A stretch of DNA of 64,000 nucleotides from Saccharomonospora viridis DSM 43017. Lineage in GTDB: Bacteria > Actinomycetota > Actinomycetes > Mycobacteriales > Pseudonocardiaceae. The translations under genes and the position numbers were made by a program. Location: NCBI RefSeq assembly GCF_000023865.1, contig NC_013159.1:1948001-2012000 (forward strand), given 5' to 3'. The stretch's first letter is position 1. Every line of letters begins with the position of its first letter. Positions 1-15,396 of the stretch are shown in pieces. The notes under the pieces were generated by a model. That model searched no databases, was not told the origin of the DNA, and saw only the letters and a program-made list of their open reading frames with translations.

Positions 1-3000
1 CCGAGCGGATCGGCGCGCACGAGATCCTCACCGCGGACGAACGACACCGACTGCTGGCTGAATGGAACGACACCGGCACGCAGCGGACCGCGACGCTGCC
101 GATCGAGCAGATCGAAAAACAGGCCGCCCTCCGTCCCGACGCCGTCGCGGTCACCCACGCCGACGCGACGCTGACCTACGCCGAACTGAACACGAGGGCC
201 GACCGGCTGGCCCGGGTGTTGGTGGAGCGCGGCGCCGCACCGGAGCGGTTCGTGGCCGTCGCCATGGAACGCACCGTCGATCTGGTCGTGGCGGTGGTCG
301 CGGTGCTCAAGACGGGGGCCGCGTACCTGCCGATCGACCACCGTTACCCGACGGAGCGCATCGAGTACCTGCTGACCGACGCCGACCCCGTGTCGTTCCT
401 CGCCTCCTCGGCGACGTGGCCCACCCTGGCGGGTCTGGTGGCGGAGGAGGCGGTACTCCTGGTCGACCGACTCGAGCTGGACACGGCCGTCGAGGGAGCC
501 GAGCCGATCGGACGGCACCGCTCGGCCCACCGGGACGGGGCCGCATACATGATCTACACGTCCGGGTCGACCGGCCGCCCGAAAGGCGTGGTCGTCACCC
601 ATGGGAACCTGGCCGAGCTGATGGCCTGGGCCCGCACGGAATTCGGCGCCGAACGGTTGGCGCAGGTGGTGCTGTCCACCTCGCTGAGCTTCGACGTCTC
701 GGTGTTCGAACTGTTCGCGCCGCTGTCCGTCGGCGGGACGGTGGAGATCGTCGACGACCTGCTCGTCCTCGCGGACCGTTCGGAGGCATGGTCGGCGAGC
801 CTGGTCAGCTCGGTGCCGTCGGCGTTCTCCCGGCTGCTGACGGGAGGTCTGCTCGACCGGGCCGACATCGGCACGTTGGTGTTCGCGGGGGAGGCGTTAC
901 CCGCGGCGACACTGGCCCGCATCCGCGAGGTGCTGCCGCACAGCGAGGTGTTCAACCTCTACGGTCCGACCGAGACGACCGTCTACTGCACCGGCGGTGC
1001 GCTCGACGTCGCCGACGGCGGCCGTTCGGCTCCTCCGATCGGCAGGCCGATGCCGAACACCCGGGCGTACGTATTGGACGAACGGCTCCGACCGGTCCCC
1101 GCGGGGGTCCCCGGAGAGCTGTACGTGGCCGGGGAACGCGTGTCACGCGGCTACCGGCGCCGCGCGTCACTCACCTCGACCCGGTTCGTCGCCTGTCCCT
1201 TCGGCCCGCTCGGTAGCCGGATGTACCGCACCGGAGACCTGGTGCGCTGGCTGCCCGACGGACGACTGGAGTTCCTCGCCCGGGTCGACGACCAGGTCAA
1301 GATCCGCGGGTTCAGGGTCGAACTGGGGGAGATCGAATCCGTCGTCGCCGCCCATCCGGACGTCGAACGCGTCGCCGTGGTCGCCCGCGAGGACACCCCC
1401 GGTGAGCCCAGGCTGGTCGCCTACGTCGTGGGCACGGTCGACCGGGCCGACCTGACGAGCTATGTCGCGGCCCGGCTGCCCGAGTACATGGCGCCGTCGG
1501 CGTACGTCGAGTTGACCGACCTGCCGTTGACCAGCAACGGCAAACTCGATCGTCGGGCGTTGCCCGCACCCGATGTCGAGGTCACGACCGAGGCGACACC
1601 GCGAAACGAGCGGGAGGAACTGCTGTGCGGTCTGTTCGCCCAGGTGCTCGGACTTCCGGAAGTCGGCATCACCGACGGGTTCTTCGCCCTGGGTGGCGAC
1701 AGCATCCTGTCGATCCAGTTGGTGGGGCTGGCCCGACAGGCCGGATTGGGACTGTCGGTGCGGGATGTGTTCGAACACCAGACGGTGGCCGGGTTGGCCA
1801 CCGTGGCGCGGGACCTGCCGACGGCGGGGACCGCACCGGTGAGCCGGGAGGCCGCCGTCGGGGAACTGCCACTGACCCCGATCATGGCGTGGCTTCACCA
1901 GCGTGACAGCGGTTCCGCCGGTTCCGCCCTGGCCGGGTTCAACCAGAGCCGGGTCGTGGCCGTCCCCGCCGGGGCTCGATACGACGACGTCCTGGCGGCG
2001 ATGACCGCGGTACTGGAACACCACGATGCGTTGCGTACGAGGTTGGACGACAGCGGGTCGCGCTGGAGGTTGTTCGTCGAACCGCCGGGCAGCGTCACCG
2101 CCGCCGACGTGGTCTCCCGCGTCGACGCCACGGGATGGACCGACGAGACGTTGCAGAAGCGCCTCGTCGAGGCCGCGGTGACCGCACGCGGGAAACTGGC
2201 GCCCACCGAGGGAATCCAGCTCCAGGCGGTGTGGTTCGACCGGGGTCCGCACCTTAGGGGTCGACTGCTGTTGGTGGCGCACCACCTGGTCGTCGACGGG
2301 GTGTCCTGGCGGGTCCTGCTACCGGACCTCGCGCAGGCGTATGGGGCGAGCACCCGTGGTACGCCCGCCGAATTGGCGCCCGTCGACGTGTCCATGCGCG
2401 AATGGGCCAACGCGCTGGCCGAACACGCACGTCACCCGGACACGGCGGCCGAACGGCCGTACTGGACCGAGGTGCTCTCCGGCGTGACCCCGGTGGCGGA
2501 CCGCGCGCTGGACCCGACCAGGGACGTCCAGGCCACCGCGCGCACGCTGTCCCGACAGCTGTCCACAGACGTCACCGAAGAGTTGTTGACGCGGATACCG
2601 GAACGGTTCCGGGCCGGGATCAACGACGTGTTGCTCGCGGGACTGGCGATGGCGTTGACCCGCTGGCACGGCGGCACCGACACGGTGATCGACGTCGAGG
2701 GGCATGGCCGCGAACCGCGTCTGGTGGGGGATGCCGACCTGTCCAGGACGTTGGGTTGGTTCACCACTTTGTACCCGGTCCGATTGGTGACCGGCCCGTT
2801 GAACTGGTCCGACGAGTCCGCCCGCGCCACGGTGATCAGCCGGGTCATCAAGCGGACGAAGGACATGGTGCGGAACATCCCGGGCAACGGGCTCGGTTTC
2901 GGCCTCCTTAAGTATCTGGCGCCCTCGTCCGAATCGCCCGGGCCGGACCTGTCCGAACTGCCGGCACCGGAGATCGGCTTCAACTACCTGGGCCGGATGA

Positions 3001-3338
3001 GGGTCGGAAGCAGTCGCGAGGAGGACGACTGGGACCTGATCGGCGGTGGGGTGGCGGGCGTGCCCGAGGGATTGCCGATGGCGCACGTCATCGAGATCAA
3101 CGCGGTCACCCACGACACGCCGGACGGTCCGGTGCTGCACATCGGTTGGACCTGGGCGGGGGAGGCGATAGCCGAGGACCGGGTGCGACGACTCGCCGAT
3201 CTGCTGACCGACACGCTGACCGCGATCAGTCGTCACGTCGACGACCCGAACATCGGCGGGTTGTCCACATCAGATGTCACGCTGGCGGGGCTTTCCATGG
3301 CGGAGCTCGAATACCTCGAAGCTGATTGGAACGAATAG
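1..3338 (+). CDS. Nonribosomal peptide synthetase, C-terminal part (A-PCP-E), 5' end outside window
   Basis: The frame is open from base 3, so the N-terminus lies upstream. The first residues look like the end of a condensation domain. An adenylation domain follows (SGSTGRPKG near nt 560, YGPTETT near nt 960), then a carrier domain (LGGDS, phosphopantetheine Ser at nt 1701) and an epimerization domain (HHLVVDG at nt 2280, NYLGRM near nt 2980). By alignment to GrsA from memory, the ten specificity residues read DVFSVALVYK. I cannot assign this code with confidence; a small residue such as alanine is possible. The E domain means the residue is delivered in D configuration. The protein ends right after the E domain and the next NRPS starts one base after its stop, the same split as DptBC/DptD in the daptomycin cluster, where position 11 is D-Ser. 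Confidence 0.95.
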
Positions 3339-3339
3339 C

Positions 3340-6300
3340 ATGAACCGTGGCAATGTGTTGGATATCCTGCCGCTTTCGCCGCTGCAGGAAGGAATGCTGT
3401 TCCACAGCGTCTACAGCGATCACGACGCGTCCGCACCGGACGTCTACACCATCTCGGTGATCGCGTCACTGGTCGGTCGGGTGGACTCCGACCTGCTGCG
3501 CACCGCCACGGAGAAGCTGCTGGACAGGCACGCGAACCTACGGGCCTCGTTCCGTTACGACGGCGTCCGCAAACCCGTCCAGATCGTGCCGAAAAGGGTC
3601 GAGGTGCCGTTCGAGGAACGGGATCTCACGGATCTACCGGAGCATGAACGAAACGCCGCGGTGAACGCCCTCGTGGAGGAACAACGGTGGCGCCGATTCG
3701 ACCTCTCCCGCCCGCCGCTGGTCCGGTTCCTGTTGGTCCGGACCGGGCCGGACCGGCATCGGTTCATCATCACCATCCACCACATCCTCGTCGACGGCTG
3801 GTCACTGGCCCTTTTGCTGGCCGAACTCCGGCAGCTGTACCGCGCAGGCGGTGACGACACGGCACTGCCCGCGGTCCGGCCGTATCGTGACTATCTGGCC
3901 TGGTTGGCCCGGCGGGACACCGCCGAGGCGCGGCGGGCGTGGCGTACGGCGCTGGCCGGACTGAGCGGTCCGACCCTGCTGGCGCCCGGTGTGGACCGCA
4001 CGACCGAACCGCCGCAGTGGCACGACTTCGGCCTGGCGGAGGGCACGGCCGAACGGCTCGTCGCGCGGGCCAAGGAAGCGAACGTCACACTCAACACCCT
4101 GGTCCAGGCGGCCTGGGCCGTCGTGCTCGGCGCCCTCACCGGTCAAGACGACGTCGTGTTCGGGACGACGGTCTCCGGCAGACCCGCCGAACTGTCCGGT
4201 GTGTCCGACATGGTCGGTCTGTTCATCAACACCATTCCGCTGCGGGTGACCCTGCGTCCCGCGGAATCACTGACCGAGCTGCTGCGCAGACTGCAGACCG
4301 AGCAGACGGCGCTGCTGGACCACCAGCACGAACGCCTGGTGAACATCCAGCAGGAAGTGGGGATGTCCGAATTGTTCGACACCCTCATGGTGTTCGAGAA
4401 CTACCCGGTGGCCTCGGCCACCCGGTCGACCGGGACGGAGGCGGACCCGCGCGATCTGACCGTCGCCGACCTCACCATGCGTGACGCCATGCATTACCCG
4501 CTCGGCTTGCTGGCGATCCCCGGCCCCCCTCTGCGGTTCCGACTGGGTTACCGGCCCAGCGTGTTCACCACGGCCGAGGTCGCCGCGATCGCCGATCGGT
4601 TGGTGCGGGTGCTCGACGCCTTCGCGGACACGCCGGAGATCCCCGTGGGTCGGGTGGAGCTGCTGAGCGCCGAGGAACGACGTCGGCTGCTCGTCGAGCG
4701 CAACGACACGGCGGTCCCCTTGCCGGACACCACCCTGCCCGCCCTGTTCGAAAGTCAGGCCTTGCGAAACCCCGACGCACCGGCGGTCGCGTCGGATCGG
4801 TTGCGCTGGTCCTACGCGGAATTGAACGAGCGGGCCAACCGGCTGGCCCGAAAGCTGCGCGCGACCGGTGTCGGCGCGGGGGACCGCGTCGCCGTGGCGT
4901 TGCCCCGCACACCCGAGTTGCTGGTCGCCGCGTTGGCGGCGATGAAGGCGGGCGCGGCCTATGTGCCGGTCGATCCCGACTACCCGGCGGACCGGATCGC
5001 TTTCATGTTGGCCGACGTCGCCCCCGGTCTGGTGCTGACCAACCGCGCCTCGGCCGACACGGTGAACGCGGCCACCGCGAACACGTCCGCGTCCCCGACC
5101 TGGTTGCTGGACGACCCGGAACTACTCGAACGACTGGCCGAACTGCCAGGGCACGACCTCACCCGGTCCGAGACCGGTGGTGCCCCGCAGCCGGCTCATC
5201 CCGCCTACGTCATCTACACCTCCGGCTCCACCGGCCGTCCGAAAGGCGTCGTGGTGTCGCACGGCTCGCTGGTGAACTACCTCCTGCGCTCCGTGGAGGT
5301 CTATCCCTCGGCGGCGGGCGTGACGCTCGTGCATTCGAAGGTGTCCTTCGACCTCACGATCGGGGCGTTGTTCGTGCCGTTGGCGGCCGGTGGGTGCGTG
5401 CGGCTGGCCGACCTCGACGACGCCGAGGTGATCGGCCCGGACGAACCCCGCCCGACGTTCATGAAGGCGACCCCCAGCCACCTGGCGATCCTGGACGACC
5501 TGCCCGAGCGGGTCACGCCGTCACAGGCGATCACCCTCGGAGGGGAACAACTGCTCGGCGAGACCGTGGCCGACTGGCGGTCGAGGCATCCCGGGGTGAC
5601 CGTGTTCAACGTCTACGGCCCCACCGAGACCACCGTGAACTGTTCGGAGCACCGACTGGACCCCGACGCGGCCACCCCGGACGGTCCGATCCCCATCGGT
5701 CGTCCACTGTGGAACACCCGACTCTACGTGCTCGACCGGGGACTGCGACCGGTCCCGGACGGTGTCCCCGGAGAACTGTACGTCGCCGGCGTCGGAGTGG
5801 CCTTGGGCTATCTGAACCGTCCCGGCATCACCGGTGAACGATTCGTCGCATGCCCGTTCGGACCTCCCGGGGAACGGATGTACCGGACCGGTGACATCGT
5901 GCGGTATCGGCCGGACGGGGAACTCGAATACCTGCGTCGGGTCGACGACCAGGTCCAGTTGCGCGGGTTCCGCATCGAGCTCGGCGAGATCGAGACGCTG
6001 CTGGCCCGCAGGCCGGAGGTGGCCAGGGCCGCCGTGGTGCTCCGTGAGGACGAACCCGGTGACAAGCGGTTGGTCGCGTACCTCCGCGCCGCGGGGCCCG
6101 TCGACACCACCGAACTGACGAACTACCTGGCCGCCGCGCTGCCCGACTACATGGTGCCGTCGGCATTCGTCGTGCTCGACGAGTTCCCGCTGTCGCCGAA
6201 CGGAAAGGTCGACCGATCCGCCCTGCCCGCGCCGGTGCCCGAGTTCACCGGTGGTCGCGCCCCGCGCACCCCGCGGGAGGAGATCCTCTGCGGTCTGTTC

Positions 6301-9300
6301 GCGGAGGTCCTCGGCCTGCCCAAGGTCGGGATCGACGACGACTTCTTCGTCCTCGGCGGGCACTCCCTGTTGGCCACCCGGCTGGTCGGCCGGGTGCGGT
6401 CGGCGCTGTCCGTGGAATTGGCGCTGCGCGAGTTGTTCGTCAACCCGACACCGGCCCGACTGGCCGCGGTGCTGGACGAGTCCGCTGGTGCACGCCCACC
6501 GGTGACCGTGCGCTCGCCGAGGCCGGAACGGATACCGTTGTCGTTCGCGCAGCGGCGGCTGTGGTTCCTCTACAAGCTCGACGGGCCGTCGGCGAACTAC
6601 AACGTCCCGTTCGCGATGCGGTTGAACGGAACTCTGGACGTGGCCGCACTCCGCGAGGCACTGATCGACGTGGTGGACAGACACGAGGCCCTGCGCACCG
6701 TGTTCGCCGAGGACGAGGCAGGCGCGTACCAGCGGGTGCTGTCCGGCGACGACGCGGTTCCGGGTTTCACCGTCACCTCGGTCACCGAGGCGGAGTTGTC
6801 CGCGCAACTGAGCCACGCCGCCGCGCACGCATTCGACCTGCGCACGGACATCCCGATCCGGGCATGGCTGTTCAGACTGTCCGAGCGCGAGAACGTACTG
6901 CTCGTGTTGATCCACCACGTGGCGACCGACCGATGGTCCCGATTCCCCCTCATCAAGGACCTCTCCCGGGCCTACCGGGCCCGGGTCAACGGACAGCAGC
7001 CGGAGTTCCCGCCGTTGCCGGTGCAGTACGCGGACTACGCCCTGTGGCAACACGAGGTCTTCGGCACCGATGACGATCCGGACAGCCTTCTTAGCGCTGA
7101 GCTCGATTACTGGACCGACCAGCTCGCCGGGTCGCCGGACTGTCTCGACCTGCCCGGTGCCGGTCCGCGGCAGGCGAAACCGAGCTATCCGAGCGGCCGG
7201 ATCCCGTTCTCGGTGACGGCGGAGTTGCACACCGCCGTCACCGAACTGGCACGCGGGACGAAGGCCACTCCGTTCATGGTGTTCCAAGCCGGTCTGGCGG
7301 CGCTGCTGACCAGGTTCGGCGCGGGGACAGATCTGCCGATCGGCACCCCGATCGCGGGTCGTACCGACGACGCGGTCGAGGACCTGGTCGGGTTCTTCGT
7401 GAACACCCTGGTGCTGCGCACCGATACCAGTGGCAACCCCACTTTCCGGCAGCTGATCGACCGGGTGCGGCAGGTCGACCTCGCCGCCTATGCCAACCAG
7501 CATCTGCCGTTCGAGCGGTTGGTCGAGGCGCTCAACCCGCCCCGGTCACTGGCGTGGCACCCGCTGTTCCAGGTCATGCTGGCGTTCCAGAACTTCGTCG
7601 GCCTGGACGACGACCCCGAGAATGTGACGGACTTGCCGGGCCTGCGGGTGTCGTACGAGAGCGTGGCCACCGACACGGCCAAGTTCGATCTCGCGTTCAG
7701 TGTGATCGAGACCTTCGACGAGTCGGGCAGACCGACCGGCATGAACGGCACCGTCGAGTTCAACGCGGACCTGTTCGCCGCCGAGACCGTCGAGGTCATG
7801 GTCGACTGCCTGCTCCGCCTGCTGACCGACGCCGTGCACAACCCCGAGGTCGAGCTGGACGCACTCGAGTTGCTCAGCCGGGAACACCGGACCCGACTGC
7901 TGCGCCACAACGACGTCGCACGTCGGCCGATCATGAAGCGCACACTCGCCGAACTCTTCGAACGCGACCTGCGCGCCCACGGCGACGCGACCGCCGTGCT
8001 CGACGTGGGCACCGGGGAGTCGCTGACCTACTCCGCCCTCAACGCCGAGGCGAACCGCCTGGCTCGATTGCTCGTGGGACACGGTGTCGGACCCGGTGAT
8101 CCGGTGGCCGTCGCGCTGCCGCGTGCGACGACCCTGGTCGTGGCATGGCTCGGTATCGCCAAGGCCGGGGGTGCCTACCTGCCGATCGACGTCACGGCCC
8201 CGCCCGAGCGGATCGGGCAGGTGCTCACCGAAGCCGCCCCGGTCCTGGCACTGACCACCGAGGAGACCGCCGGAAGCGTCTCCGGGACACCCACGGTGTC
8301 ACTCGACGCCCCGACGACCATGGCCGAACTGCGCGAGCACAGCGACACCGACGTGACCGACGCGGAGCGGAAACGCCCGCTGTCCATCCGGGACACGGCG
8401 TACGTCATCTACACCTCGGGTTCGACCGGCCGGCCGAAGGGCGTGGTCGTCGAACACGAGGGGCTGGCGGACCTGCACGCCGCACAGTCGGAGCTGTTGG
8501 CGCCGTCGGTGGGCGATCGGGTGCTCCAGCTGGTCTCGACCAGCTTCGACGCCTCGATCTGGGACTTCAGCACCGCGTTGTTGACCGGCGCGACGCTGGT
8601 CTTCGCGCCCGCTGATCGGTTACTCGGTCCCGCCCTCCCCGAATTGGTGGAGGGGTCCGGCATCACGCATCTGACGTTGCCACCGCCGGCGCTGGCCACC
8701 GTCGACGAGGAGCGCATGCCGCGCTCGATCACGCTGACCGTGACCGGTGACGTGTTGCCCGCGCCGCTGGCCGCGCGGTGGGCCCGGGACGGCAGGCGGG
8801 TGATGAACGGGTACGGGCCGACCGAGACCACGGTGGGCGCGACCTACTGGGTGTGCAACCCGGACGAGGCCGGTTCGGTGCCGATCGGAAATCCGTTGCA
8901 CAACAAGCGGGTCTACGTGCTGGACCACCGGTTGCGACCGGTGCCGGACGGTGTCGTCGGTGACCTCTACGTCGCGGGGGCGGGGCTTGCGCGCGGCTAC
9001 TTCTTACGTCCCGGTGAGACCGCACACCATTTCGTCGCCGACCCGTACGGGGCGCCGGGGGAGCGGATGTACCGCACCGGTGACCGCGGTTATCGCCGGG
9101 CCGACGGGGCGCTGATGTTCGCGGGACGCGCCGATGATCAGGTGAAGATCCGAGGGTTCCGTATCGAACTCGGCGAGATCGAGGCCGCGCTGAGCGCGCA
9201 TCCGGACGTCCGACAGTGCGCCGTGGTGGTCGACGACTCCGAGGACAAACGGATCATCGGTTACGTCGTACCGACCGCGGCGGGTAAGAAGCTCACGGCG

Positions 9301-10491
9301 ACGGACATGCGGGAGTACCTGTACGACCGGATACCGGACTACATGGTGCCCAGCGCCATCGTGCTGCTCGACGAGCTACCGATGACCGTCAGCGGCAAGA
9401 TCGACCGAAGGGCACTGCCGAGGCCGGCCGCGTCCACCGACGTCGAACGACGGGCGCCGAGATCGCCTCAGGAGAAGATCCTGTGCGAGAGTTTCGCCGG
9501 AGTGCTCGGCCGTGAACGGGTCGGTATCGACGACGATTTCTTCCTCCTCGGAGGACATTCGTTGTTGGCCGCGAAACTGGTCTCCGACATTCGTGCGGCG
9601 ACCGGTGTCGAACTGACGATCAGGAACCTGTTCGAAGCGCCGACCCCCGCTCGGCTCGCCCGATATCTGACGGACGGTACCGCCGGGAACCCATTCGACG
9701 TCGTGCTGCCGCTGCGCTCCGGGGGAAGCGCGTCCCCGATATTCTGTGTCCATCCCGGAATGGGACTCAGTTGGTCGTACAGCGGATTACTCGGACAACT
9801 CGACGGTGACATCCCGGTCTACGGCATCCAGGCGAGGGGAATCGCTGAAAGGGCGATACTGCCGCGCAGTATTCCGGAAATGGCCGCGGACTACATCGCG
9901 GAAATACGGCGGATATGCCCGAGTGGACCGTATCGATTGTTGGGGTGGTCGTTCGGCGGGAACGTGGCCTACGAAATGGCGTGTCAGCTCCAGCACGCGG
10001 GCGCGGAGGTGGGGCTGCTGATGCTGTTGGACGCTTATCCGGTCGCCGAATCGGTCCGTGGCACCGAGCTGGACGAACATCGGGCACTCGGAGAGTACCT
10101 CCGGGGGATCGGCCTCGATCTCACCCACGAAGAGCTCGAGCGGGGCGACTGGGTGGACAATCTGCGGTCGCTCACCGCGGAGCTCGGTGGTCCGGTCGCG
10201 AATCTTTCCCCCGACGACATCATGGCGATGAAGGACATTTATCTCAACAATGCGAGGTTGACTCGACGGTTCGCGCCTGGCAAGTTTGCAGGGAACATGA
10301 CCTTCATCGAATCGGGGGTTTCGGGGCCGGGTGGCCGTGCCGAGTTGTGGCGGCCTTACGTGGCCGGACGAATCGACGTCCATGTCGTTCCTTATGAACA
10401 CGAGCAGTTGTTGGGGCAGAAATCGATCGCAGAGGTGGGCGTGATTCTGAGGAATGCGCTGGCGGTCGAAGGGAAAGGGAAGGAGAGTTGA
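3340..10491 (+). CDS. Terminal lipopeptide NRPS, C-A-PCP-C-A-PCP-TE, DptD-like
   Basis: A 2383-residue synthetase that adds the last two residues and releases the peptide. Order: C (about 1-440, HHILVDG at 147), A (460-960), PCP (Ser1009 in GGHSL), C (1063-1507), A (1527-2027), PCP (Ser2074 in GGHSL), thioesterase (2120-2383, Ser2204 in GWSFGG). The first C should be a DCL type since it follows an E domain. Hand-read specificity codes are DLGKTGVVNK, one residue from the DLGKTGVINK I recall for 3-methylglutamate in daptomycin-type synthetases, and DAWTTTGVGK, which I recall as the daptomycin kynurenine-13 code. The second C domain reads HHVATDR where HHxxxDG is expected. I chose the ATG one base after the upstream stop; an in-frame start 66 bases earlier would overlap the E-domain protein. 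The role is firm from architecture; substrates are inference from the codes and neighbours. Confidence 0.95.
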
Positions 10492-10706
10492 AGTCGAACC
10501 CGTTCGAGGATGAAAACGGTGTCTACCACGTGCTGGTGAACGACGAGGGACAGTACTCGCTGTGGCCGTCTTTCATCGAGGTGCCCGCCGGATGGCGCGA
10601 GGTGCTGAGCGGGAAGAGCCGGCAGGAGTGCCTCGACTACATCGAGGAGAACTGGACCGACATGCGTCCTAAAAGCTTGATCAAAGCCATGGAGGACGCG
10701 TCGTGA
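10488..10706 (+). CDS. MbtH-like protein
   Basis: A 72-residue MbtH family protein, the small chaperone-like partner that binds and activates A domains. The signature is intact: NPFED near the N-terminus, [14 protein letters not shown], and WTDMRP near the C-terminus. The TTG start overlaps the NRPS stop (TTGA), with AAGGAGA about five bases upstream, so it is translationally coupled to the synthetase. Its stop overlaps the GTG of the methyltransferase by four bases. The daptomycin cluster has an MbtH gene (dptG) at the corresponding place. It probably serves the A domains of this cluster. Confidence 0.95.
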
Positions 10707-11752
10707 CCGGAAGGATGCTGGACAATCCAGCACCCACGTGGTCGTCGTACATCCCGGGGAAGACGTTGCACGAGTATCAGCTGCACATGAAGCAGCAACA
10801 CCCGGCGATGTTCGAGCTGCTCGACGCCCGCAGGATGGCCGAACTCGAGAACCAGACCTGGCTGGCCGAGGACAACGAGTTCGGTGATGAGGACGGCCGG
10901 GGTCGTGGCATTTCCTACCGACTCGCGCAGCGTCGATCGACGGCGCGGCTCACCGGGATCACCACGCTGTTCGATCTGCTCGGAGGGCCACATTGGACTC
11001 GCCCGGTCTGCGATGTGCTCGGTGGGGACGGGTTGTTGAGCAAGGTGTGGCGCCGCTTGACCGGGGCCCCGGACGACGCCGAGGTGCCGTTGTTGGCCGG
11101 GGACATCAGTGGGTCGATGGTGGCCGCCGCGTTGGCCGACGGACTGCCCGCCGTACGACAGCGAGCCGACCAACTGTTGTTGCGGGACGACGTGCTCGAC
11201 GCCGTGCTCATCGCCTACGGAAGTCACCACATCGCGCCCTCGCAACGTCCCCGGGCGTTGTCGGAGGCGTATCGCGTACTCGTCCCGGGCGGTCGTGTCG
11301 CGTTGCACGACTTCGCCTCGGATTCGCCGGTCGCGCGGTGGTTCGGCGAGGTCGTCCACCACCAGGCGTTGGCCGGGCACGACTACGACCACTTCACCGA
11401 CGACCAGATGGCGGGTTACCTGTCGGACGCCGGGTTCGCGGATGTGCGAGTCGAGACGATGTACGACCCGATCACCATCCACGGTGACACTCCTGAGCGG
11501 GCACTGGCGGGGTTGGCCGACTACATGATCGACATGTATGGGCTGGAACTGCTGCGTGAAGGCGCGCCGGACGTCGAAACCGCCCGGGCCGACGTGTTGC
11601 GCCTGCTGCGGGAGATCTTCCGGTACGACCCCGAGACGTTCCCGGATTCGGCGGTTGACCCCGTCACCGAGCTGACCGTCGTCGCGGACGGTTTCGGCTA
11701 TCGCGCGGAACTGCCCAGGCTCGCGCTCGTGGCCAGTGGTACCAAGCGGTGA
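10703..11752 (+). CDS. SAM-dependent C-methyltransferase, DptI/GlmT-like (probable alpha-ketoglutarate 3-methyltransferase)
   Basis: A 349-residue protein with a class I methyltransferase core. VCDVLGGDG near residue 95 is a plausible motif [13 protein letters not shown] sits in the post-II region, and [12 protein letters not shown] matches the motif before the methyl-transfer strand. The GTG start overlaps the MbtH stop (GTGA). In daptomycin and CDA clusters the gene here (dptI, glmT) methylates alpha-ketoglutarate, which is then transaminated to 3-methylglutamate. The first A domain of the neighbouring NRPS carries a methylglutamate-like code, which supports that role here. The family is clear; the exact substrate is inference from position and from that code. 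No dedicated aminotransferase is visible, so a housekeeping enzyme would have to finish the residue. Confidence 0.88.
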
Positions 11753-11782
11753 ATCGTAGGGAAGGTGGGGAGGAAACAGCGG

Positions 11783-12496
11783 ATGACCGAATGGGGTGCC
11801 ACGCAACCGGATCCAGTCTACGGGGAGTCCCTCAGACTGGACGAACTGCTGTCGCTCCTCTGCGTGAACGACGAAGTGGACCGGATGTTCTTCGTCTCGA
11901 CGCACCAGGCATGCGAGATCTGGTTCGCGGTCGTCCTGCGGCACCTGGAAGACGTGATCGACGCCCTGACGCTGAACGACGGGGTCAAAGCGGCCGAGCT
12001 GCTGGAGCGCCTGCCCAGGATCATGCTGGTGATCTTCGAGCACTTCGAGGTCCTCCGGACGCTGAAGTTCGAGTCGTTCGACCGCATCCGCACCAGTGTC
12101 GGTTCAGCCAGCGGATTCCAATCGGTCCAGTACCGGGAGATCGAGTACCTCTGCGGTGCACGGGACACCCGGTTTCTGAACACCGTCGGTTTCCGTGATC
12201 GCGATCGGCGAAAACTGAAAGAGCGATTGGAGGGCAAATCCTTGTCCCAAGTCTTCTTGGAGTACCAGCATCGTGGTTCGGAGCGTGTGGTGAACCGGAT
12301 TCGTGACGCGCTGCACGACTTCGACGATTCGATGCGGGAACTGCGAACACGGCATGCGAGGATCGCCGAGCATTTCCTGAGTTCGAGACCGGGCACCGCG
12401 GGCACGACGGGCGCGGATTACCTACGAAGATCCACGTCCCGAACGTTGTTCCCTGAAATCTTCGAACGGGAAAGTCCCGGAACAGTCGGACGATGA
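11783..12496 (+). CDS. Tryptophan 2,3-dioxygenase
   Basis: A 237-residue heme dioxygenase that opens the indole ring of L-tryptophan to give N-formylkynurenine. Family motifs are present: STHQACEIWF (substrate-site His region), SASGFQSVQYREIE, and the C-terminal GTAGTTGADYLRRS loop preceded by histidines in the heme-ligand region. I preferred the ATG with GGGGAGGAAA eight bases upstream over a GTG 18 bases earlier. It starts 30 bases after the methyltransferase stop and is presumably cotranscribed. Position and role match dptJ of daptomycin and the dioxygenase of the taromycin cluster. It should supply kynurenine for the last NRPS module, whose A-domain code is kynurenine-like. No tryptophan halogenase is seen next to it. 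Confidence 0.93.
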   Translation: MTEWGATQPDPVYGESLRLDELLSLLCVNDEVDRMFFVSTHQACEIWFAVVLRHLEDVIDALTLNDGVKAAELLERLPRIMLVIFEHFEVLRTLKFESFDRIRTSVGSASGFQSVQYREIEYLCGARDTRFLNTVGFRDRDRRKLKERLEGKSLSQVFLEYQHRGSERVVNRIRDALHDFDDSMRELRTRHARIAEHFLSSRPGTAGTTGADYLRRSTSRTLFPEIFERESPGTVGR

Positions 12497-12739
12497 GACC
12501 TCGAGGAGATCTCGAGAACCACCGCTTGATCGAATCGACGATCGGCCGAGGGTGTCGAGACGCAAGGGAAGAGGGTTGGGCGTGATGTCGATGGGCCGCG
12601 CCGTCGTGTCCGGTGCGGGGGTGAGGTCACGAGCCACCGAGGCTTTCGCCGGTGTCGCCCTGTGGGCACACGACACGCGGCGGTGCGGGCGGTGGTCGGT
12701 GACTGCGAGCATGGTCGACCGAGCGGGGTGATCCGTCCC

Positions 12740-13630
12740 ATGGCCACGGCGGTTTTCCGGTCGTACGACCAGCGTGAGCTGGACCTCCAGTATTCGCCGA
12801 GTTCGTGTGTCGACGACGTCGAGGGCTACTTCCACGAGTACACCCGGCGCAGCGCCGAGGCGCGGCGGGAGATCGAGGGGTTCGTCGAGGTCCGTTACGG
12901 CGACGAACCCGACCAGGTCCTCGACTTCTTCCCGGCGAAGACACACGGGTCCCCGTTGCTGGTCTTCCTCCACGGTGGTTACTGGCAGGAGTTCAGTCGT
13001 CGCGAAGCCGCCTTCATGGCCATGGATTTGACCGCCCAAGGCGTTTCGGTGGCCGCACTGGGCTACGGCCTGGCCCCGCGGTACACCCTGCCGGAGATCG
13101 TGACGATGGTGTCCGAGGGGGTGCGGTGGATCTGCCGCAACACTGACGGGCTTCCCGGTTCGCCTCGGCGTGTTGTCCTGAGTGGATGTTCCGCGGGTGC
13201 GCACCTGGTCGCCATGGCCTTGCTCGACGAGATCGGCTGGCGGCGGGAAGGAGTGCGACCGACGGAGGCGATCGCCGGGGCGGTGTTGCTCAGCGGCGTC
13301 TACGACCTCGACCCGGTTCGCCGGACCTACGTGAACTCCCCGCTCGGACTCGACGTCGACACCGCACTCGCCTGCAGTCCCCGGCATCTTCCCTTGACCG
13401 GTCTGCCACCGTTGGTCATCGCGCGCGGGGAGAACGAGACCACGGAGTTCGCCAGGCAGCACACGGAGTTCGTCGCCGCGGTGCGACAGGCCGGCGGTTG
13501 CGTGAGCGATCTCGTCGTCCCGGGCCGAAACCACTTCGACCTGCCCTTCGACCTCGGGGATCCGGGGACATCGTTGGGAGCGGCGGTACGACGGTTGTTT
13601 GTCCCCTCGGTAGGCGGGGACGCCCGGTGA
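12740..13630 (+). CDS. Kynurenine formamidase, alpha/beta-hydrolase type
   Basis: A 296-residue alpha/beta hydrolase with the HGGYW oxyanion motif, nucleophile elbow GCSAG, a plausible acid in ARGENE and a His in GRNHFD. This matches arylformamidases that hydrolyse N-formylkynurenine to kynurenine and formate. Placement next to tryptophan 2,3-dioxygenase in a kynurenine-type lipopeptide operon supports the call. The start is uncertain: a GTG at 12728 and an ATG at 12662 are also in frame, and no start has a strong ribosome binding site. About 240 bases without a gene separate it from the dioxygenase. I recall no dedicated formamidase in the daptomycin cluster but one in taromycin, so this cluster looks closer to taromycin. 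Confidence 0.82.
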   Translation: MATAVFRSYDQRELDLQYSPSSCVDDVEGYFHEYTRRSAEARREIEGFVEVRYGDEPDQVLDFFPAKTHGSPLLVFLHGGYWQEFSRREAAFMAMDLTAQGVSVAALGYGLAPRYTLPEIVTMVSEGVRWICRNTDGLPGSPRRVVLSGCSAGAHLVAMALLDEIGWRREGVRPTEAIAGAVLLSGVYDLDPVRRTYVNSPLGLDVDTALACSPRHLPLTGLPPLVIARGENETTEFARQHTEFVAAVRQAGGCVSDLVVPGRNHFDLPFDLGDPGTSLGAAVRRLFVPSVGGDAR

Positions 13631-13697
13631 AAAGCTGTATGGACAAGATGAGTCAGGTGCCGGGTAGGGTCGATCCGGGAGCCGAGGGGAGAAAGCC

Positions 13698-14441
13698 ATG
13701 AAAGGCGGTTGGCTACGAAGCCGTCGACAGAACCCTGCCGCGATGGTGGAACTGGTGTGCTTTCCGCATGCCGGCGGTTCTGCGAGCTACTTCCACCACT
13801 TCAACGAACACCTGTCGTCGACCATCGCGGTCACGGCGGTCCAGTATCCGGGCCGACAGGATCGGCTCAACGAGGCCGGACTGGTCAGCATCGTCGACGC
13901 CGCCGAGACGATCGCGGATGAACTCGACGCCGTCCGCCGTCCCCTCGCACTGTTCGGCCACAGCATGGGTGCGTTGATCGCGTTCGAGACGGCGCATCTG
14001 CTGCGGGACAGGGGACGGCCACCGCTCGCGCTCATCGTGTCGGGAAGCAGGCCCCCACACCTGGTCGAGGACCGCAAGATCCACCAGCTCAGCGACGAAG
14101 ACCTGATCAACGAGATCAGGAGTCTGGCCGGGACCAGCGATGTGCTGCTGTCCGATGACGAGTTCGTCCAATTGCTGCTTCCGACCATCCGCGCCGACTA
14201 CAAGGTCACGGAGACGTATGTTCACCAGCCGCGTCCGGCGCTCGACATACCCGTCCAGGTCCACGTCGGTGGCCGGGACGACAACGTGTCGCCGACTGAA
14301 GCGGACGAGTGGCGTCGGTACACGGTCGGGGACTTCCGCGTGAACGTCCATGAGGGTGGGCACTTCTACCTCAACGACTGCCTGGACGTCCTCGGGAAGT
14401 CGGTCTCGGCGCTCCTCGAGCCCTCAGCATCCTCGCCCTGA
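13698..14441 (+). CDS. Type II thioesterase
   Basis: A 247-residue stand-alone alpha/beta-hydrolase thioesterase of the GrsT/RifR kind. It has CFPHAGGSA near the N-terminus, the nucleophile motif GHSMG, an Asp in GGRDDNVSP and the catalytic His in EGGHFYL. Such enzymes clear misprimed or stalled acyl groups from NRPS carrier domains. The ATG follows GAGGGGAGAAAG at good spacing and lies 67 bases after the formamidase stop. It closes the biosynthetic operon and converges with a LysR gene 25 bases downstream. Confidence 0.93.
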   Translation: MKGGWLRSRRQNPAAMVELVCFPHAGGSASYFHHFNEHLSSTIAVTAVQYPGRQDRLNEAGLVSIVDAAETIADELDAVRRPLALFGHSMGALIAFETAHLLRDRGRPPLALIVSGSRPPHLVEDRKIHQLSDEDLINEIRSLAGTSDVLLSDDEFVQLLLPTIRADYKVTETYVHQPRPALDIPVQVHVGGRDDNVSPTEADEWRRYTVGDFRVNVHEGGHFYLNDCLDVLGKSVSALLEPSASSP

Positions 14442-14466: not shown

Positions 14467-15396
14467 TCACACCCAGCGCGCACCGGCTGGTAATCGCAGT
14501 CGCTGGGAGCGGGCGTTCGCGAGAAGTTCCATGAGGGCCAAAGCGGTGCGGGACAGGGGTCTGGTGGGGTCGTGGACGAGGCAGATGTCGCGTTCCACGA
14601 CCGGTTCGACCAGGGGGCGGGAGTCGATCTCGGCGAACGTCATCATGGGGAGCACGAGTCCGGGCACGGCGGAGACACCGAGGCCCGACGCGGTGAGCCC
14701 GGCGACGGCGCCGACGTTGCGTGCCTGGGTCACCGAGCCGAGCCGCACGCCGTGCCGGGACAGTATCCGGTCGACGTAGGCGCGGATGCTGCTGGTCGGG
14801 TCGAAGGCGACGAACTCCTCGCCGTCGAGGTCGTTCCAGGTGATCTCGCTGTGTTCGGCGAACCTGTGCCCCGGTGGGAACACGCAGACGAACCGGTCGA
14901 CGGCGATGGGCCGGGCGTGCAGCGTGGGAGGCACGGTCGCGGCGACCGTGACCGCCATGTCGGCGCTACCCCGCGCCACGTGGTCGAGCACGTCCTGGGA
15001 CAGTCCATCGAGGACGGTCACGGCCACGTCGGGCCGTGCCGTCCGGAACTTCGCGAGCACGTGCGGCAGCATCGTCGCGGCGAGCGAGGGCAGTGCTGCG
15101 ATCGACACCGATCCCCGTGTCCCGGACAGATAACCCTCGAAGTGGTTCATGGCGGTGTCGAACTCGGCCAACAGTCGGCGGGCGATGGTCAGGAACTGTT
15201 CACCGTCGACGGTGGGGTGCACCCGGCGAGTCGTGCGCTCGAAAAGCCGCACCCCGAGTCGTTGCTCGACCTCGAGCACCGTGCGGCTGACCGAGGACTG
15301 GGCGACGTGGAGCTTTCGGGCCGCGCCGGTGTAGCCGCCCGCATCGGCGACGGCGGCCACGGCACGCAGGTGTCGTATGCCGATGTCTATGCCCAT
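14467..15396 (-). CDS. LysR family transcriptional regulator
   Basis: A 309-residue regulator. The N-terminal winged helix-turn-helix covers roughly residues 5-65 (AARKLHVAQSSVSRTVLEVE as the recognition region) and a periplasmic-binding-like effector domain fills the rest. It is divergent from the CitMHS transporter operon, with a perfect interrupted palindrome five bases upstream of its start codon. LysR proteins usually control the divergent operon and themselves from such a site, so it most likely regulates the transporter/AtuA/hydrolase operon rather than the lipopeptide genes it converges with. The effector is unknown; an organic acid or acyl intermediate is plausible given the transporter. 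Confidence 0.93.
   Translation of the reverse strand: MGIDIGIRHLRAVAAVADAGGYTGAARKLHVAQSSVSRTVLEVEQRLGVRLFERTTRRVHPTVDGEQFLTIARRLLAEFDTAMNHFEGYLSGTRGSVSIAALPSLAATMLPHVLAKFRTARPDVAVTVLDGLSQDVLDHVARGSADMAVTVAATVPPTLHARPIAVDRFVCVFPPGHRFAEHSEITWNDLDGEEFVAFDPTSSIRAYVDRILSRHGVRLGSVTQARNVGAVAGLTASGLGVSAVPGLVLPMMTFAEIDSRPLVEPVVERDICLVHDPTRPLSRTALALMELLANARSQRLRLPAGARWV

Follow-up and report, generated by a model that had tools for sequence, protein, structure and literature searches.

A cryptic taromycin-like lipopeptide gene cluster in Saccharomonospora viridis DSM 43017, examined from its 3' end

In the biosynthesis of taromycin, the lipopeptide of Saccharomonospora sp. CNQ-490, free tryptophan is the substrate of chlorination by Tar14, and the chlorinated amino acid is subsequently converted to chlorokynurenine (PMC12615548). 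A cluster of S. viridis DSM 43017 is already known and already assigned as unchlorinated and taromycin-like: first reported in 2010, it is listed by Baltz 2021 (PMC9113097, citing Baltz 2010 and 2018) as "(desCl-Taromycin)" with a finished BGC and described as cryptic and without a tryptophan chlorinase, and according to PMC7990883, S. viridis might produce taromycin-like compounds. A search of the literature, mostly of open-licence rather than subscription papers, returned no report of the product (deschloro-taromycin) from this thermophile.

We analyzed a stretch of 64,000 nucleotides (here called the window), i.e., positions 1948001-2012000 of NC_013159.1, the single contig of the 4,308,349-base S. 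viridis DSM 43017 genome. There is little doubt that the 3' end of this strain's cryptic, taromycin-like cluster of the daptomycin family occupies window positions 1 to 14441, and no finding contradicts this assignment. The whole cluster, approximately 58 kb in length, spans about positions 1904534 to 1962441 of the contig (Table 1). The initial annotation, read by hand from the raw sequence, had assigned this interval to the 3' half of a calcium-dependent lipopeptide cluster of the daptomycin/taromycin type, and the domain order, the adenylation codes, and the upstream genes agree with it. Up to 14441, the window genes share a common direction; neighbors either overlap slightly or are spaced 12, 165, or 67 bases apart. 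A LysR regulator gene on the opposite strand (14467-15396) adjoins this run, which argues that the cluster end at 14441 is correct; it is followed by a CitMHS-type transporter gene and then AtuA-type genes, and none of these look like cluster members. Approximately 250 kb downstream of the cluster, a further NRPS gene with a 3551-aa open frame (minus strand; positions 2212132-2222376; loci L010 and L011) was detected through condensation-domain matches only.

Table 1. Features of the lipopeptide cluster (window positions unless the contig accession is given)
Feature	Position	Strand	Basis or remark
ABC-2 permease and DrrA-type ATPase	NC_013159.1:1904534-1906325	-	Upstream of window
FAAL-type ligase, 577 aa	Upstream of window, just 5' of first NRPS	+	
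Two acyl-CoA dehydrogenase-type proteins, 583 and 549 aa	Upstream of window	+	
Free-standing ACP, 88 aa	Upstream of window, just 5' of first NRPS	+	
First NRPS, 5772 aa	Upstream of window	+	Condensation domain at its start
Second NRPS (DptBC equivalent), 7310 aa	NC_013159.1:1929406-1951338	+	
C-terminal part of second NRPS, module 11 A + T + E	1..3338	+	Pfam, domain motifs
Module 11 adenylation domain, DVFSVALVYK	114..1154	+	Pfam, code reading
Module 11 epimerase	1935..3026	+	Condensation-family match containing HHLVVDGVS motif
Terminal dimodular NRPS C-A-T-C-A-T-TE (DptD/Tar10 equivalent), 2405 aa	3274..10491	+	Pfam, motifs
Module 12 adenylation domain, DLGKTGVVNK (3-methylglutamate)	4747..5814	+	Pfam, code; published code (PMC9113097, Table 7)
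Module 13 adenylation domain, A3 motif to AMP-binding_C end, DAWTTTGVGK (kynurenine)	8410..9399	+	Pfam, code
Thioesterase domain	9736..10425	+	Pfam, GWSFGG motif
MbtH-like protein, 72 aa	10488..10706	+	PF03621, E 5.2e-29
DptI-type SAM methyltransferase	10703..11752	+	Pfam methyltransferase
Tryptophan 2,3-dioxygenase, 243 aa	11765..12496	+	PF03301, 103.8 bits
Alpha/beta hydrolase (Abhydrolase_3)	12662..13630	+	Pfam; HGGYW and GCSAG motifs
Stand-alone type II thioesterase	13698..14441	+	PF00975, E 1.3e-53

Lipid initiation genes, whose absence the initial annotation had named as a ground against its reading, were found in the upstream DNA in the form of the FAAL-type ligase and the free-standing ACP. 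The best NCBIfam matches of the ligase were to fatty-acid--AMP ligase families, all below the respective cut-offs. The ligase would activate a fatty acid, which would be loaded onto the ACP, desaturated by the two acyl-CoA dehydrogenase-type enzymes, and joined to Trp1.

At window positions 3-3338, Pfam identified an A domain, a T domain, and a Condensation-family domain, the last being marked as an epimerase because of its histidine motif. The 7310-aa NRPS thus ends with the module 11 epimerase, bearing out the earlier view that an E-terminated protein precedes the DptD-like protein as in the DptBC/DptD split. The next protein (Pfam: two C, two A, and two T domains and one TE domain) has the CAT-CATTe architecture and carries the MeGlu and Kyn codes. 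Its start is probably an ATG near 3340 rather than that at 3274, since the latter still falls within the preceding gene, which stops at 3338. Its TE domain is expected to close the peptide ring, probably onto Thr4. A PDB search with this protein retrieved general relatives only among the best 60 of 305 matches. The MbtH, methyltransferase, and dioxygenase genes lie in a one-direction run, as annotated initially, but of the "thioesterases" said to accompany them, only the gene product at 13698-14441 is a thioesterase by Pfam. An NCBIfam search with the MbtH-like protein gave no match, and a PDB search with the methyltransferase yielded general relatives only. The methyltransferase, named DptI-sv in PMC9113097, would supply 3-methylglutamate through the methylation of alpha-ketoglutarate. 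Both a DptI-type methyltransferase and a tryptophan dioxygenase are encoded inside the cluster.

The dioxygenase is likely the source of kynurenine from tryptophan, together with a formamidase. No second member of the tryptophan dioxygenase family was found in the genome by a family search, which gave two neighboring matches in one frame. The protein scored 138 bits against NCBIfam TIGR03036 (cut-off, 391). The hydrolase encoded next to it may, tentatively, be a kynurenine formamidase, as suggested by its HGGYW and GCSAG motifs, a PDB match to kynurenine formamidase 4e11 (E 1.1e-21), and its gene neighborhood. Its best PDB match was 9n8r, "Lipase 1" (E 1.2e-30), the remaining ones were lipases and esterases, and its best NCBIfam match was a hormone-sensitive lipase family (129 bits; cut-off, 320).

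That the cluster is decayed and nonfunctional is very unlikely. The cluster is cryptic, with no product in the literature covered, and the dioxygenase is 33 to 63 residues shorter than the listed solved bacterial structures (276-306 aa), its Pfam and PDB matches being split into two pieces. Against decay, the dioxygenase retains the HQ..E.W, SGFQS.QYR, RHxR, and GT.G motifs of the solved bacterial enzymes, whose histidine, arginine, and threonine motifs we take to have catalytic roles. The frames of all three NRPSs are open throughout, and together they contain 13 carrier motifs, 13 condensation motifs (including the variant HHIALDA as the histidine motif of module 1), and the TE motif.

Adenylation codes were read for all thirteen modules and verified by eye against the sequence context; nine residues were read per code, the tenth (K) being a convention. 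The codes of modules 1 to 5 are DVSAVGAVEK, DLTKMGDVHK, DLTKVGAVNK, DFWNIGMVHK, and DILQLGLIWK, those of modules 6 to 10 are DTWDMGYVDK, DLTKVGAVNK, DVFSVAAVYK, DLTKVGAVNK, and DILQLGVIWK, and those of modules 11 to 13 are given in Table 1. The predicted order of the 13 residues assembled by the three NRPSs, as read from the codes, is Trp-(D)Asn-Asp-Thr-Gly-Orn-Asp-(D)Ala-Asp-Gly-(D)Ala-MeGlu-Kyn, in which the calls for modules 1 to 11 are our own, based on known specificity codes and the order of the modules rather than on a predictor. Modules 7 and 9 have the same code, which we take to specify Asp, and that of module 10 presumably specifies Gly; the Asp-x-Asp-Gly calcium motif, against which the initial annotation had asked the upstream modules to be checked, is thus present at modules 7 to 10. 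Calcium-dependent membrane action would be expected of such a product. An epimerase motif comes after each of modules 2, 8, and 11, which is the chirality pattern of daptomycin. The module 12 and 13 codes are identical to those published for the S. viridis Tar10 homologue, where DLGKTGVVNK is assigned to 3mGlu and DAWTTTGVGK to Kyn (PMC9113097). These two codes, with their MeGlu and Kyn specificities, and that of module 11 had been hand-read exactly; a clinically relevant antibiotic family was thus recognized by hand reading of raw sequence, with three specificity codes free of error.

The module 11 code had been judged not to resemble serine, which we also take to be the case, and this had led to the suggestion of a new congener. 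The two parts of this claim fared differently. The code shares eight of nine read residues with the Ala code of module 8 (DVFSVAAVYK), and hence the best reading of position 11 is alanine. Taken with the module 11 epimerase, this Ala-like code points to D-Ala11 by sequence alone, and D-Ala11 is a published residue of taromycin (PMC9113097), so that novelty on that ground falls. A new daptomycin congener with a residue not yet known at position 11, which a difference from known serine codes would favor, is thus very unlikely, and this candidate was dropped in view of the nearly identical module 8 code.

As a control of code reading, A54145-type loci were examined. The alignment was one column off in L056, L057, L061, and L065, giving DGLFVGIVTK, and was shifted in the same way in L078, whereas L062 was read correctly as DGLFVGIAVK. 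PMC9113097 reports the latter code from S. pini PL19 (the strain of L057) and S. griseoluteus ISP-5360 (the strain of L061), as well as from other strains of S. barkulensis and S. exfoliatus. The sequence context at L056, L057, L061, L062, and L065 has I-A-V at the shifted positions, indicating that the slip lay in the alignment.

A Pfam family search of the S. viridis genome found no full-length tryptophan halogenase, and thus no Tar14-type tryptophan chlorinase, the source of 6-Cl-Trp and 4-Cl-Kyn in taromycin. The product should consequently be an unchlorinated relative of taromycin. Two Trp_halogenase matches (22.8 bits each) passed the Pfam cut-off of 21 bits; of 458 positions, one covers 58 and the other 61. 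Production of a chlorinated taromycin after all, through a halogenase elsewhere in the genome, is extremely unlikely: taromycin does carry chlorine on Trp1 and Kyn13 (PMC9113097), flavin reductase family genes are present, and the two matches exceed the cut-off, but these matches are low scoring and short, a shared FAD-binding stretch is their likely cause, the same search was positive in 5 of 14 control genomes, including Escherichia coli, and the cluster has been published as lacking a chlorinase (PMC9113097).

With the unchlorinated product as the preferred reading, the kynurenine-supplying enzymes may be viewed beside those of taromycin. Tar13 and Tar16 of taromycin are, in work attributed to Luhavaya et al. 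in 2019, reportedly chlorine selective, and in the taromycin cluster the chlorinase and its reductase presumably lie between the dioxygenase and formamidase genes. In S. viridis, these two genes are separated by only 165 bases; halogenation may therefore have been cleanly gained or lost at this gene pair. There is an even chance that the dioxygenase and formamidase of S. viridis act on unchlorinated Trp and N-formylkynurenine and thereby form a natural unchlorinated pair corresponding to Tar13 and Tar16. If so, a comparison of both enzyme pairs would reveal the origin of chlorine selectivity.

The likeness to taromycin and daptomycin is drawn from published and otherwise known features of their clusters. 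Regarding taromycin, the residue order, D-Ala11, the module 12 code, and the presence of two fatty-acid dehydrogenases are shared, the DptI and Tar5 homologues are 82% and 78% identical, respectively, and the Kyn code is DAWTTTGVGK in S. viridis and DAWTTTGVAK in taromycin, while S. viridis lacks the tryptophan chlorinase (PMC9113097). The product is expected to differ from taromycin in the absence of chlorine, as already published in that paper. As for daptomycin (Streptomyces roseosporus), MeGlu12 occurs in both, the Kyn13 code is identical, the MeGlu code has V for I at one place, and DptI is 54% identical (PMC9113097). The two clusters are split alike into DptA, DptBC, and DptD equivalents; they differ in position 11, Ala-like in S. 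viridis and Ser in daptomycin, and in the fatty-acid dehydrogenases for an unsaturated lipid in S. viridis. The placement of epimerases is also alike. The A54145 clusters of Streptomyces share MeGlu12 with the same code, but their last residue is Ile/Val instead of Kyn (PMC9113097); the methyltransferases adjoining A54145-type dimodules are DptI-type and 39 to 45% identical to that of S. viridis, and no match to the S. viridis dioxygenase was found in the A54145 stretches examined.

Relatives of the methyltransferase were searched at several levels. Within the genus, 7 of 12 genomes matched at E 0.001, the only full-length match being that of S. viridis itself and the other six being partial (34 bits or less). 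Within the family, a threshold of E 1e-20 was reached in at least 6 of 390 genomes, including S. viridis. The other five loci are probably not lipopeptide clusters, since no adenylation A3 motif occurred within 40 kb around the match under a strict pattern, which a loose motif could escape. A scan of genome contigs with the single methyltransferase sequence found nothing, and one with a five-sequence alignment found 37 loci, not including those of the taromycin and daptomycin producers. Within flanks of at most 10 kb, a readable adenylation domain was present at 18 of these 37 loci, and neither the dioxygenase nor the formamidase of S. viridis had a counterpart at any of them at a threshold of E 1e-6.

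One of the clusters found is a 13-module lipopeptide-type cluster of Streptomyces sp. NP-1717 (locus L042 on NZ_JAAPBF010000002.1 and loci L081-L085 at G390:C112, about 28000-87000), whose DptI homologue is 54% identical to the S. viridis methyltransferase. Its codes, with middle residues that are less sure because their context was only partly checked, are DAYCVAAVEK, DMAKVASVNK, DLTKVGDVNK, and DFWSVGMVHK (modules 1 to 4); DILQLGVIWK with a methyltransferase insert, suggesting a Sar-like residue (module 5); DVFCVAAVYK, DLTKVGAVNK, DADDAGTVDK, and DLTKIGAINK (modules 6 to 9); and DILQLGLVWK, DLTKVGDVSK, DLGKTGVVNK, and DVQYVGHVVK (modules 10 to 13). Epimerase-type motifs follow modules 2, 8, and 11. 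The cluster also encodes an AMP-binding protein at the place of the FAAL, along with a TauD-type oxygenase and an ABC permease; no free ACP was identified. With the residue order of A54145 as the scaffold for comparison, the predicted peptide looks like A54145 ending in MeGlu-Pro instead of MeGlu-Ile, and the cluster is possibly a new hybrid of A54145 and friulimicin/malacidin endings. The strain name was not found in the open-licence literature; neither the strain nor, among the rows of Table 7, a MeGlu-Pro end appears in the available part of PMC9113097.

The 432-kb linear plasmid of Streptomyces sp. NBC_00829 (L031; NZ_CP108868.1) encodes a DptI-like methyltransferase (44% identical) adjoining NRPS genes with the codes DAHHFGQVNK and DALQMAGGFK; genes for a methylaspartate mutase and an accompanying B12-binding protein are also present, as is a gene related to glutamate synthase. 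DAHHFGQVNK also lies next to the methyltransferase in L051 and in L054/L076 (the latter two on one chromosome), indicating that the pairing of this methyltransferase with another NRPS product recurs.
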